A stretch of DNA of 54,039 nucleotides, from positions 1 through 54,039 of the forward strand of contig JALVVV010000009.1 of assembly GCA_027023265.1 (NCBI GenBank), in the 5' to 3' direction. The DNA comes from DHVE2 group archaeon (GTDB lineage: Archaea; Thermoplasmatota; Thermoplasmata; Thermoplasmatales; Aciduliprofundaceae). A model generated the notes under the pieces. That model was not told where the DNA came from. It worked only from the letters and a program-made list of their open reading frames with translations, and did not search any database. Made by a program: the position numbers and the translations under genes. Shown here in pieces: positions 32,539-45,841 of this stretch (position 1 is its first letter; each line of letters begins with the position of its first letter).

Positions 32539-32925
32539 ATGAGATATACATATATGCCTCTTCCAGATAACATCCCCGCAGATATGGAGAGAGAAATAAA
32601 CGAGAAGGGAGGTATAGAAAGCATAATTTCAAATATACCTGACGAAAAATCCCTGGAGAAAATGGCAGGAATACACCAGGCGCTCTCTGACAGCATAAGG
32701 TTGAAAATTATGTTTTTCCTTCACGAGCAGCGAGCATGCGTCTGTTTGTTGCGGCAAATAACATCTCTGGCATATTCAAAGCTATCGTACCACCTGAAGA
32801 TATTAAGAGCTGCAGATTTGATTACCTACGAGAAAAATGGCAATTACGCAATATATTCACTAACAGATTTCGGCAGGTTTTGCGTTGAAAAATGCGTGAC
32901 TGCAAGTGGAAATTACAAAAGATAA
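32539..32925 (+). CDS. ArsR/SmtB-family metal-responsive repressor
   Basis: A 128-residue winged helix protein (about 45-120). The metal-binding signature Cys-Val-Cys is in RACVCLLRQI (about 65-74), at the alpha3 site used by ArsR/CadC/SmtB sensors. It is followed by the recognition helix SLAYSKLSYHLKILRAADLI and the wing YEKNGNYAIYSL. Two more Cys residues near the C-terminus (FCVEKCV) could add to the site. It lies 22 nt after the Old-Yellow-Enzyme-type gene, probably co-transcribed, and may repress that operon in response to a soft metal or metalloid. The inducer is not known. Confidence 0.85.
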   Translation: MRYTYMPLPDNIPADMEREINEKGGIESIISNIPDEKSLEKMAGIHQALSDSIRLKIMFFLHEQRACVCLLRQITSLAYSKLSYHLKILRAADLITYEKNGNYAIYSLTDFGRFCVEKCVTASGNYKR

Positions 32926-33040
32926 AGAGTAAACGACCATAAATTTTTAAAAGATCCAATAATAAATTCCAGAATCTATACTGTAAATTAGGTGAAAGAA
33001 TGTGCGCGTGAGTGGGATGAGCATAAATTCTGAAAGAATT

Positions 33041-33135
33041 TTGGGAGTAAATCCCCAAGCAAGCACAGGGGTGGGATTTGGCGCCCTCCACGGAGGGCTT
33101 GCTCGCATCTGCCGATGCTCGTGAACCCACGCTCC
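33041..33135. ncRNA. GC-rich structured element: split copy of the tRNA-Ser T-arm with a 43-nt insert
   Basis: On the plus strand 33068-33079 and 33123-33135 are identical to the contiguous T-arm of the neighbouring tRNA-Ser (33162-33186 region), but are separated here by a 43-nt insert (33080-33122). The insert forms two perfect hairpins: GCCCTC/GAGGGC and GCATC/GATGC, each with a 4-nt loop. The outer GTGGG/CCCAC pair closes a three-way junction. A further pair (AATCCCC-type, near 33049-33055) lies at the left edge. It is far richer in G+C than the coding DNA, as is usual for stable RNA in thermophiles. It could be a small RNA, or a scar of an insertion at a duplicated tRNA end. Transcription strand is unknown. 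Confidence 0.45.
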
Positions 33136-33156
33136 ATATTTAACAAAAACATAAAG

Positions 33157-33240
33157 CGCCGGGGGTGGGATTTGAACCCACGCTCCCAATTAAGGGAACC
33201 AGCTCTCCAGGCTGGCGCCTTACCTCTCGGCAACCCCGGC
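33157..33240 (-). tRNA. tRNA-Ser (GGA anticodon)
   Basis: An 84-nt class II tRNA. The acceptor stem is GCCGGGG/CCCCGGC with discriminator G, as for serine tRNAs. The anticodon arm is CCAGC-CTGGAGA-GCTGG, giving anticodon GGA. A long variable arm follows (TTCCCTTAATTGGGAGC), then the T-arm with GGTTCAAATCC. The 3' CCA is not encoded. No intron is seen. It lies 36 nt downstream of leuS on the same strand, so it may be processed from a joint transcript. Confidence 0.93.
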
Positions 33241-33276: not shown

Positions 33277-36108
33277 TTATTCCACGTATATGGCAGGCTT
33301 TAGTGGCATGGCCAGCTTTCTCTTACCCTTGGGATCGTAATCACTATTAATAACCACCTCAGCACCGATTTCTCTGAGCAGGTAATCCCTTTCACGCTCA
33401 AGAACCTTCGCTTCGTTCACTTGGAAATATTTTATTTTATCTTTGAGAAGTCTCTTCACAAACTTTGCAATCTCACCTTTATTTACTTTAACATCCGCAT
33501 TCATGGCAATGCGCATGGCATCTTTCGGATTTGCATCTTTGATTTTGTCAAATACCTCCCATTTCCATGGCTCTGCTGTATAAATATACACCCGCTCTGG
33601 CTTTATCTTTGCAACTCGGAGAATCTCATTTATATCTGAGATTACAGAATCTACAAACTCCATTTCACCTTCTATCTCATCATCTATGAACTCCTCCTTA
33701 GGCGCCCTTAGAGTCTCAATGGAAACGAATGTGTCATTACCAAGAAGGTGCCATATTTCCTCGGCCAAATGTGGTGTCACAGGGCTTATCATCTTCACCC
33801 AATCCTCGATAACTGTTCTTACCATCCTGTTTCTGCGCCCATTTCCCACGTGCTTTTCATAGTATTTCAGGTCATTGGGTATATGAAAGAACATGTTAAG
33901 CATGGCATCTCTGATTCTGAGATTTCCCATTAGCTCAATGGCATCGCGGTACTGTCTGTAAAATTTAGACAGGAACCAGCGGTCGTAGTGATTAAACTCA
34001 TCTAACGGCTCCACATTAATGCTTTCCTCAAAAAGAGATGCAAGCTTTTCAAATCTCCTGCGGAGAGATGATACTTCACTTTCCTTCCAGTCCATTAACG
34101 TATCCATATCCGCAGCCACGGCACAGTACAAGCGGAATAAATCCACACCGTATCTTTCGGATATGTGTGCAAGAGGAATCACGTTGCCTTTACTTTTTGA
34201 AATTTTTGCACCTTCACGAATCATCAGGCCATTTAGAGATATACCTTTTGGCCAGTGTTCCTCCGGAAATATGGCAACATGGTGCATTATGAAAAATGCA
34301 AGATGATTGCTCATGTGGGCCGGAGCGGTGTGCCTCAAATCATTAGGATACCAGTATAGAAATTCCGAGCGCATTCTCTCAATGACACTCTCCGATATAC
34401 CTGTCTTCTTCTGCACTTCCTCGGGATTACCAGCGCCCAAAAACACGTAATTGAACAAATCTACGGTTAGCTTTTCTGGAGGTATATTCTCTTCTCTTAT
34501 TACATTGGCTATTGTGTAAAAAGCCATGTAAATTGTTGAATCACTTAAACTTTCTATAATCCACTCATTATCCCATGGAAAGCGCGTGCCCAGACCACGT
34601 TTTCTGGCACATGGCCTCTTATCCAGCCAGTCTATTATGCCATGCATCATATCCCTGTACTTCTCCGGATGAAACAGCATTTTGTTCACGGCATCGTGTC
34701 CAAGCTCCTTCCACCATTTTTGAGAGTAATCTATAAACCACTGCTCCTGGAGGACCGCCACTATTACCTTGTGCCCGTTTCTCGTCACAGCTTTTCTTGA
34801 TGTCTCGTAGAACACATCTGCCTTACCCATATTCCTGAGCCATTCTTTAACCTCATCTTTGATATCCTTTATCTTTATACCTGCAAAATCCCCGCATTTA
34901 TCATTAAGGATTCCTGAATAAAACTCGTCCCTGTATATTACTTGAGTTGCCTCTTCCAACCGCGGGTCATTCTGGTTATTTATATTCATTCTCTCGCATA
35001 TATCCCGGGCGGGCATATCATAGCCCTTTATGTCTATTATTTTTATGGGAGAGATGCTCTTAACCATTTCAACATTTAGATTATACTTATTAATAACATT
35101 CTCATTTTTTTGTAGGTCTACCAGAGCCTGATAATCATACGGAGCATGGGCAGGCACAGAGTACACAACCCCCGTGGCATTATCCACGTCCACAAATTCA
35201 GCGGGCAGTACGGGAACTTCTCTTCCCTGAACGGGCTCCTTTGCAAATTTACCCACAAAGTAAGTACCCGGGTAACACTTTCCAAGATTCACTCCCTCTT
35301 TCTGATACTTTAACTTCTCCGCTGCATCACGAGATACAAACCATTTTTCACCTTCAACAAATATCTCGCAGTACTCACCTCCGGGATTTAGCCAGAGATT
35401 CGTTACGCCAAATATGGTCTCCGGGCGTAGAGTGGCAGCAACCAGGTAACCATCTTCAAAGGCAAACTTGATTGCGGTAAATTCCATTATGGTGACTTTA
35501 TTTACATCACCATCATCAATATCGTCCTCCCCAACGGGATTTCCATCAACGGGACTGTAAGTTATGGGATACTTCCCTTTTTTAATAACTCCCTTATCAT
35601 AAAGTCTCTTGAATTGCCACTCCACAAACTTATTGTAAATCGGCTCTGCGGTGTGGAACCTTCTACGCCAGTCTATAGAATACCCCATGCTCTTGAAATC
35701 TTTTATCACCTTATCTGCAAAATATTTGGCAATATTTTCAGGGTCAACAAAAGATTGTAAAATTTTTTCAACCTCTACCTCATCATCTTCGTATATCCGA
35801 ATGTAGTCTCTATAAAGGGACATTACCCGCTCATCCCCATTTTTTATGGCATCGGCTATTGCCAGCACGGGGGTGCCTGTAACGTGAAATGCCATTGGAA
35901 AAAGAACATTGTATCCTTGGAGCCTCTTAAACCTCGCAATTATATCCCCCATGGTGAATGTCCTTCCATGCCCTATATGTAGAGAACCGGACATGTAAGG
36001 ATACGGAACGGTAACGAAAAACTTTCTTTTATCGCCAATTTCTGGTTCAAATACCCTGTTTTCTTCCCATGCTTTCTGCCACTTCTCTTCTATCTTCTTG
36101 AAATCCAT
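33277..36108 (-). CDS. leuS: Leucyl-tRNA synthetase
   Basis: A 943-residue class I synthetase of the archaeal/eukaryotic type, which charges tRNA-Leu. It carries the HIGH motif (His44-Ile-Gly-His47, in YPYMSGSLHIGHGRTF), an editing domain (about 150-450; TLRPETIFGVTNLWLNP is typical) and the KMSKS motif as KISKSKGN (about 635-642). A C-terminal helical domain for tRNA contact follows. Length is as expected. tRNA-Ser follows by 36 nt on the same strand. The start was taken at the ATG at 36108, where family homology begins. Confidence 0.97.
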   Translation of the reverse strand: MDFKKIEEKWQKAWEENRVFEPEIGDKRKFFVTVPYPYMSGSLHIGHGRTFTMGDIIARFKRLQGYNVLFPMAFHVTGTPVLAIADAIKNGDERVMSLYRDYIRIYEDDEVEVEKILQSFVDPENIAKYFADKVIKDFKSMGYSIDWRRRFHTAEPIYNKFVEWQFKRLYDKGVIKKGKYPITYSPVDGNPVGEDDIDDGDVNKVTIMEFTAIKFAFEDGYLVAATLRPETIFGVTNLWLNPGGEYCEIFVEGEKWFVSRDAAEKLKYQKEGVNLGKCYPGTYFVGKFAKEPVQGREVPVLPAEFVDVDNATGVVYSVPAHAPYDYQALVDLQKNENVINKYNLNVEMVKSISPIKIIDIKGYDMPARDICERMNINNQNDPRLEEATQVIYRDEFYSGILNDKCGDFAGIKIKDIKDEVKEWLRNMGKADVFYETSRKAVTRNGHKVIVAVLQEQWFIDYSQKWWKELGHDAVNKMLFHPEKYRDMMHGIIDWLDKRPCARKRGLGTRFPWDNEWIIESLSDSTIYMAFYTIANVIREENIPPEKLTVDLFNYVFLGAGNPEEVQKKTGISESVIERMRSEFLYWYPNDLRHTAPAHMSNHLAFFIMHHVAIFPEEHWPKGISLNGLMIREGAKISKSKGNVIPLAHISERYGVDLFRLYCAVAADMDTLMDWKESEVSSLRRRFEKLASLFEESINVEPLDEFNHYDRWFLSKFYRQYRDAIELMGNLRIRDAMLNMFFHIPNDLKYYEKHVGNGRRNRMVRTVIEDWVKMISPVTPHLAEEIWHLLGNDTFVSIETLRAPKEEFIDDEIEGEMEFVDSVISDINEILRVAKIKPERVYIYTAEPWKWEVFDKIKDANPKDAMRIAMNADVKVNKGEIAKFVKRLLKDKIKYFQVNEAKVLERERDYLLREIGAEVVINSDYDPKGKRKLAMPLKPAIYVE

Positions 36109-45730: not shown

Positions 45731-45841
45731 TGCCGGGGCCGGGGTTTGAACCCGGGACCTTCGGATTTCTCAGGCCATATGGCGGTGGAGATTCATATTA
45801 CCCTATGAGTCCGACGCTCCACCAGGCTGAGCCACCCCGGC
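45731..45841 (-). tRNA. tRNA-Met (CAT), elongator type, with a 37-nt intron
   Basis: The exons give a 74-nt cloverleaf: acceptor GCCGGGG/CCCCGGC with discriminator A, D-arm GCTC...GAGC, anticodon stem TCGGA/TCCGA with loop CTCATAA (anticodon CAT), and T-arm CCGGG-TTCAAAC-CCCGG. The intron at 45767-45803 interrupts the loop after position 37, the canonical archaeal site, and would be removed by EndA at a bulge-helix-bulge. CCA is not encoded. Initiator identity is unlikely, because the acceptor and D-arm do not show initiator features; an isoleucine tRNA with a modified CAT cannot be fully excluded. The 5' end lies 1 nt after the rps3ae stop codon. Confidence 0.9.
45767..45803 (-). other. tRNA-Met intron, 37 nt, anticodon loop
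   Basis: The minus strand reads GGGTAATATGAATC at the 5' intron end and GGCCTGAGAA at the 3' end. Removing it leaves a standard seven-base anticodon loop (CTCATAA), placing the intron between positions 37 and 38. GCCATATGGC inside it is self-complementary. Confidence 0.85.

Follow-up and report, generated by a model that had tools for sequence, protein, structure and literature searches.

Tandem hairpin-bearing units behind tRNA genes of DHVE2 archaea, and a split T-arm as the probable far end of one of them

The window, a 54,039-nt stretch of DNA from a DHVE2 group archaeon (genome G000), carries a tRNA-Ser(GGA) gene between a leucyl-tRNA synthetase (LeuRS) gene and an ArsR-family gene, and pieces of the tRNA's own 3′ end recur in the interval that separates it from the latter (Table 1). 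Read on the minus strand, the tRNA is followed by a 20-nt spacer, GGAGCGTGGGTTCA, a 43-nt insert that runs from CGAG to GCCA, and AATCCCACCCC, of which 11 nt are identical to the tRNA, with decay beyond. The T-arm is thus repeated with 25 identical nt (14 + 11), the break falling between T-loop positions 57 and 58, and the description in the initial annotation, of a T-arm copy some 20 nt from the tRNA that is divided by a 43-nt double-hairpin insert, is confirmed. The range given there (33041-33240) takes in the tRNA itself, and a decayed unit directly downstream (33003-33061) was missed, as were the relatives described below. The tRNA 3′-end copy that closes this second unit is decayed more than the first. 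The array in the window comprises two units, with no gene between them, and is decaying; its split T-arm looks like the worn far end of a mobile piece. On its own, the 43-nt insert folds better than most of its shuffles (z = -2.3 on either strand). A second tRNA, 111 nt long and perhaps with an intron, lies at 45731-45841 of the window, where Rfam finds it and ARAGORN does not.

Table 1. Features around tRNA-Ser(GGA) in the window.
Feature	Coordinates	Strand	Evidence
tRNA-Ser(GGA), platform with the units behind it	33156..33240	-	ARAGORN; RF00005, 60.9 bits
20-nt spacer from tRNA to split T-arm, the body of unit 1	33136..33155	-	Sequence
Split T-arm, left half, GGAGCGTGGGTTCA	33122..33135	-	14/14 identical to tRNA
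43-nt double-hairpin insert, CGAG-P2-CGAGCAAG-P3-GCCA	33079..33121	-	R1 match at 33083-33127, 65 bits, the window sequence being one of the 11 in the model; covarying helices
Split T-arm, right half, a tRNA 3′-end copy with decayed outer end	33062..33078	-	12/17 identical to tRNA
Decayed unit 2, of a short type with one hairpin (GGGGATTTA-hairpin)	33018..33061	-	BLAST match to G003 and G006; intact 69-nt unit in G003
Second tRNA 3′-end copy, TCCCACTCACGCGCA, decayed	33003..33017	-	Sequence; position corresponds to TCCCACCCCCGGCGC of G003
ArsR-family gene, right flank	32539..32925	+	HTH_5, E 1.7e-10; neighbour also in G002 and G006
Leucyl-tRNA synthetase gene, left flank of the tRNA	33277..36108	-	Pfam tRNA-synt_1 and leucyl editing domain; neighbour also in G002-G007

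The two hairpins of the insert belong to a dispersed family. In the covariance search that had been proposed for the insert, a model of the two hairpins (R1), built from 11 sequences including that of the window, has matches at E ≤ 0.1 in 18 of 61 genomes, and the helices covary. Among these are 16 of the 18 genomes in the window's family, those without a match being G001 (79% complete) and G007 (71% complete); outside the family there are the one genome of the sister family and a weak match in G044 (E 0.052). The named records with matches are DHVE2 group archaea and one Aciduliprofundum MAG. The count is highest in G009, with 48 matches at E ≤ 0.1, and in the window's genome there are 11 at E ≤ 10, five of which also pass E ≤ 1e-5. 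Two-sided changes affect 10 of the 12 core pairs, in both helices; 147 cells show such changes, against 43 when shuffled and at most 21 with the partners slid, as counted over 123 distinct rows that include some weak or partial matches, in an alignment fitted to the model. Repetition and conservation of the insert in relatives, whose absence, together with that of a transcript, the initial annotation had named as fatal to its reading, were thus found, and the relatives in other genomes rule out a single scar or isolated oddity. We note that G009, G012, G016 and others (L133-L166) contain scattered repeats of a related kind, three-way junctions whose outer stems are G-rich; these are often found beside tRNA 3′ ends and often near contig ends, and lie within mosaics of other palindromes.

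The split T-arm form is more narrowly placed. The pattern GGTTCRCGAGC-N(6-30)-GCGAGC has 10 matches in eight of the order's 117 genomes; nine are hairpins behind a tRNA gene and the tenth, in G018, has no hairpin, whereas the reversed control pattern has no match in the same 117 genomes. Chance is excluded for the layout by these tRNA-linked hairpins and the empty control. We tabulated it at 11 sites in DHVE2 and Aciduliprofundum archaea, all behind tRNA-Ser or tRNA-Gly genes: seven at tRNA-Ser(GGA) and an additional, strongly decayed one there in G009, two at tRNA-Ser(TGA), and one at tRNA-Gly(GCC), with spacers of 6 to 707 nt between tRNA and site. The insert occupies the same T-loop position (57/58) in several genera. 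The left half matches its own tRNA at 13 or 14 of 14 positions at seven of the 11 sites; the right half is identical to its own tRNA over its full length at six (17/17 in G003, G008 and G021) and decayed at five, that of G006 included. At some sites the arm follows the host tRNA, with GTGGG in G000, G003 and G008, GAGGG in G021 and CCGGG at tRNA-Gly; at the tRNA-Ser(TGA) sites the left arm reads GGGGG against GGGAG in the tRNA. The suggestion of a tiny mobile palindrome is partly right: as a family, the double-hairpin core is scattered over the genomes, but its split T-arm version was found only behind the tRNA whose arm it carries. A wider scan of genome contigs returned 24 stretches, seven of them from DHVE2 or Aciduliprofundum; none of 10 inspected by eye among the other 17 resembles the hairpin site, and a broad spread was rejected.

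Copies of tRNA 3′ ends were then counted more generally, using the last 14 nt of each tRNA with up to two mismatches, within 1200 nt downstream (less at the ends of contigs and stretches). All 40 tRNA genes found in G004 were checked, and 33 in G000 (32 of a list of 45, plus one found by Rfam). In G004, 11 of 40 are followed by copies of their own end, compared with 11 of 2056 when the same flanks are probed with the ends of other tRNAs; those that score are Gly(GCC), Gly(TCC), Ala(CGC), Ser(GGA), Ser(TGA), Ser(GCT), Leu(TAA), Leu(CAA), Leu(CAG), Leu(GAG) and one without an ARAGORN name. The window's genome yields two of 33, one of them due to a neighbouring complete tRNA gene; the window's own copy is decayed and fails this test. 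Hairpins stand beside most copies. After removal of two complete tRNA genes and one weak coding match from 36 rows, 33 units remain, from several genomes and with some near-identical pairs, not all of them independent; a hairpin of at least 6 bp ends within 8 nt of the tRNA copy in 23 of the 33, compared with 21.5% of shuffles, and a hairpin of at least 5 bp lies beside it in 30, compared with 48.9%. A loose motif is present in 12 of 33 units against 9.9%, a loose criterion to which we give no weight. Complementarity of the 5′ arm of a unit to its own tRNA was apparent by eye in some, and the counts gave no support for it: the own tRNA end ranks in the best 5% for one of 33 units (median rank 0.53), and perfect 5′ arms number 9 of 36 for own against 163 of 1088 for other tRNA ends. 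Behind several of the tRNA 3′-end copies stands CCCTTCGGGTTT, which resembles a small terminator hairpin (L227, L241, L250, L235).

Empty and filled states can be compared between G005 and G003. The tRNA-Ser(GGA) site of G005 is empty, with TTACTCTTTTC directly behind the tRNA and then a Mur-ligase-family gene (folC-like), whereas in G003 three units of 643, 69 and 72 nt precede a flank that matches that of G005, each unit closing with TCCCACCCCCGGCGC, 15 nt that repeat the tRNA 3′ end exactly. The left flanks of the two are identical at 484 of 517 positions; the right flanks, whose alignment contains two gaps of some 20 and 30 nt, are identical at 393 of the 420 positions aligned. At tRNA-Ser(TGA), G005 is again empty and G003 holds one unit of 196 nt; the right flank agrees in 370 of 401 columns, and on the left, where the comparison extends over 73 nt, an ungapped alignment has 50 identities, the 38 nt adjoining the tRNA being almost all identical and the mismatches lying nearly all in the outer half. 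The direction of change is not proven, because precise loss between direct repeats would look alike, and the empty site of G005 could have arisen by such a loss. In G013, tRNA-Ser is followed directly by a replication factor C gene, with neither site nor the CPBP gene described below. The order LeuRS, tRNA-Ser, site, ArsR is common to G000, G002 and G006, and the site may therefore be old there.

Some units carry genes, and two recur in different surroundings. The 643-nt unit of G003 contains a 160-aa ORF, and this locus, taken from the first base of the tRNA through the split T-arm, is 97% identical over 737 bp to one in G008, which belongs to a different genus. Past the split T-arm the similarity breaks off; the sole other match between the 6-kb stretches is 24 bp long and falls on another tRNA-end copy. 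The left neighbours differ, LeuRS in G003 and a 212-aa ORF without Pfam match in G008, and compared with the LeuRS of the window, the protein of G003 is 72% identical and that of G008 69%. The tRNA-Ser(TGA) unit of G003 is also present in G006, at 85% identity over 311 bp, a stretch that opens immediately ahead of the tRNA and closes with the unit, and the two contigs have no similarity beyond it. Nearly all of these genomes are MAGs, and contigs may therefore be misbinned. In G002 a CPBP-type protease gene (PF02517) spans the gap from tRNA-Ser to the site; G009 has a CPBP-type gene 83% identical to that of G002 with a decayed site behind it, and G007, of the window's genus, has one behind tRNA-Ser at 44% identity. 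These CPBP/Rce1-type genes start right after tRNA-Ser in all three (L002, L016, L009).

The 160-aa protein has no match in Pfam or PADLOC, one marginal match in PHROGs (E 0.047) and three marginal matches in the PDB (best E 0.039), and a known cargo function was rejected on these grounds. For four of six homologues of this cassette gene no tRNA was found within 1.5 kb. Neither the gene nor the split T-arm pattern has a match in the viral contigs searched, and a viral carrier was discarded as well.

We consider it likely that a small mobile cassette was inserted at the 3′ end of tRNA-Ser and that the split T-arm is its distal attachment site. Tandem units, some of which carry a gene, sit between the tRNA and the downstream flank, the tRNA copy extends from about position 58/60 to 73, and a hairpin or double hairpin usually directly precedes it; this repeated order of tRNA, body, hairpin and tRNA copy is the one expected of insertion at a tRNA 3′ end where the unit restores the tRNA. 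A recombinase provided in trans would join the unit, as a circle or a single strand, to the 3′ end of the tRNA, with the hairpins presumably forming part of the unit's recombination site. The tRNA copy of the incoming unit would then restore the tRNA, and the old 3′ end would shift to the far side. Units whose copies spoil the tRNA would be lost, which would explain why the copies match their own tRNA. The first interpretation of the locus is thus partly supported, an att-site scar being the closest of the three options it offered, in that the split T-arm marks the far end of tRNA 3′-end insertions.

Several observations count against such a cassette. No recombinase is linked to the units and none of the tyrosine type is present on the window's contig, while tyrosine recombinases (PF00589) occur in 19 of 19 genomes and several adjoin tRNA genes. 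The decayed right halves, the low count in the window's genome, the homologues of the cassette gene for which no nearby tRNA was found, the lack of own-tRNA complementarity in the 5′ arms, a possible misbinning of MAG contigs and a possible loss in G005 weigh in the same direction. A broader proposal is that DHVE2 archaea possess an integron-like system in which tRNA genes act as attI, and in which a host recombinase stacks cassettes and mini-units through a folded single-stranded T-arm/hairpin site and leaves the tRNA unharmed; this we put forward tentatively and regard as unlikely. We regard the arrangement as a novel form of insertion at tRNA genes. Judged by title and opening lines, none of the papers listed on Aciduliprofundum and DHVE2, archaeal integrons, double-hairpin elements, casposons, and tRNA-linked repeats or cassettes describes such arrays, with subscription journals and preprints lying outside this survey. 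Elements that integrate into tRNA genes are normally large and bring their own integrase; tiny, hairpin-ended tandem units behind several tRNAs, some with a gene, would be a separate route to gene collection, and the layout of the tRNA arrays is comparable to that of integrons and CRISPR arrays. The arrays are directly testable, because empty and filled sites exist in congeners.

Related arrangements are known elsewhere. Behind E. coli tyrT, tandem repeats each carry a copy of the tRNA 3′ end (RtT RNA); these form one locus, which is not known to have a hairpin split of the T-arm or gene cassettes. The Allomyces elements are mitochondrial double-hairpin elements. The R1 family has two tight hairpins, compensating stems and many copies. 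Double-hairpin and repetitive hairpin-forming elements of mitochondrial DNA, as described in PMC2800124, are likewise small and dispersed with variable stems, a likeness of layout only; unlike them, the units here are tied to tRNA 3′-end copies and to gene-bearing units, in archaea. Integron cassettes, including those of archaeal integrons (PMC9668308), share the fixed platform and the tandem units, one with a gene, and tandem units behind one platform are seen in G003, with three, where G005 has none. In both systems the site that closes each unit combines inverted arms with a structured middle. Here the platform is a tRNA gene and most units seen are without a gene. The attC boxes RYYYAAC and GTTRRRY occur as a pair at none of the 11 sites on either strand, a single GTTRRRY being present in one, and the main text of PMC9668308 contains neither tRNA nor Thermoplasmat-. 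tRNA genes are described as the commonest integration targets of archaeal mobile elements (PMC4158269), and ArcVen-P3, at tRNA-Ser, resembles our units in its insertion in the 3′ part, the intact tRNA and the tRNA part copied at the far end. ArcVen-P3 is 9.5 kb long with 55-nt repeats and an integrase (PMC4158269), whereas the units here are tandem, 69-643 nt long and without integrase, with hairpins in or beside the copy; an integrase gene would not fit into those of 69, 72 and 196 nt, and the 160-aa ORF of the 643-nt unit has no Pfam match. In Caldiarchaeum, a mobile element is proposed to have disrupted a tRNA gene (PMC3293823), in a layout that differs from the present one.

The strongest competitor, albeit one we judge rather improbable, is that short attR scars remain from conventional integrative elements, which have a tyrosine integrase and use an attB within the 3′ part of the tRNA, and that a dispersed repeat later decorated these scars with hairpins; its insertion step overlaps with that of a cassette, and the two probabilities are not exclusive. 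Integration of this kind is well known to leave tRNA fragments (PMC9897764; PMC4158269), and in these genomes tyrosine integrases do adjoin several tRNA genes. G008 has one beside tRNA-Lys, some 1.1 kb past the split T-arm, and G012 has one close to a repeat of the related kind that stands behind tRNA-Ser and lacks tRNA arms. However, none of seven integrase-side tRNA flanks inspected by eye contains a split T-arm, the insert occupies T-loop position 57/58 in several genera, and scars alone would not produce tandem arrays that repeat every 50-70 nt with a hairpin ahead of most copies. Local template switching during replication, repeatedly copying the 3′ end of tRNA genes, would account for copies that match their own tRNA and for units that are mostly short and tandem, but one gene-bearing unit is found in two contexts (G003 and G008) and the hairpin core is common to different genera, and we give this mechanism little credence. 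The last of the initial annotation's options was a structured RNA, here a unit transcribed behind the tRNA as a T-arm mimic or three-way-junction RNA. The hairpins do covary (two-sided changes in 10 of 12 core pairs; 147 cells against 43 shuffled), yet selection on them may act at the DNA level, Rfam has no match up to E = 1 in 32940-33160, and the folding of the 91-nt element does not surpass that of its shuffles, with z = -0.47 and 0.22 on the two strands. Since neither the empty and filled sites nor the gene cargo is explained by an RNA, we think it very unlikely.

Casposase-like integration by Cas1, in which the tRNA would serve as leader, its 3′ end would be duplicated like a CRISPR repeat and short DNA would be captured as spacers, has equally poor prospects. 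The arrays do resemble repeat-spacer-repeat, and the casposons of A. boonei, from the same archaeal family, target a tRNA 3′ region, the enzyme recognising TCAAATC, a tRNA T-loop sequence, and duplicating 14-15 bp (PMC6614799). That duplication begins 8 bp downstream of TCAAATC and in A. boonei (CCCCACTACGAGGAG) extends beyond the tRNA end, whereas the copies here cover positions 58/60-73, and the A. boonei register was rejected for them; the A. boonei casposon also differs in its terminal inverted repeats and its size of about 9 kb with Cas1. Cas1 occurs in seven of 19 genomes and none was found in the array-rich G004 (93% complete), and hairpins of at least 5 bp beside the copy in 30 of 33 units (48.9% of shuffles) are unlike captured DNA. 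In G011, which we take to be A. boonei T469, a casposon at tRNA-Pro (G011:C1:380295-389420; L275) holds a 404-aa Cas1 and lies between the tRNA and a related hairpin repeat, whose end the 15-bp duplication overlaps; casposon and hairpin-repeat DNA therefore meet at one spot in an organism whose casposon is a much-used in-vitro model. Transposition of the Y1/REP (IS200-IS605) kind was rejected, Y1 transposase (PF01797) being found in none of eight genomes of the genus and two of 18 of the family. Separately, inverted T-loop-like motifs were seen by eye between a tRNA and a tyrosine-integrase gene right behind it (L254, L205, L206, L278, L277).
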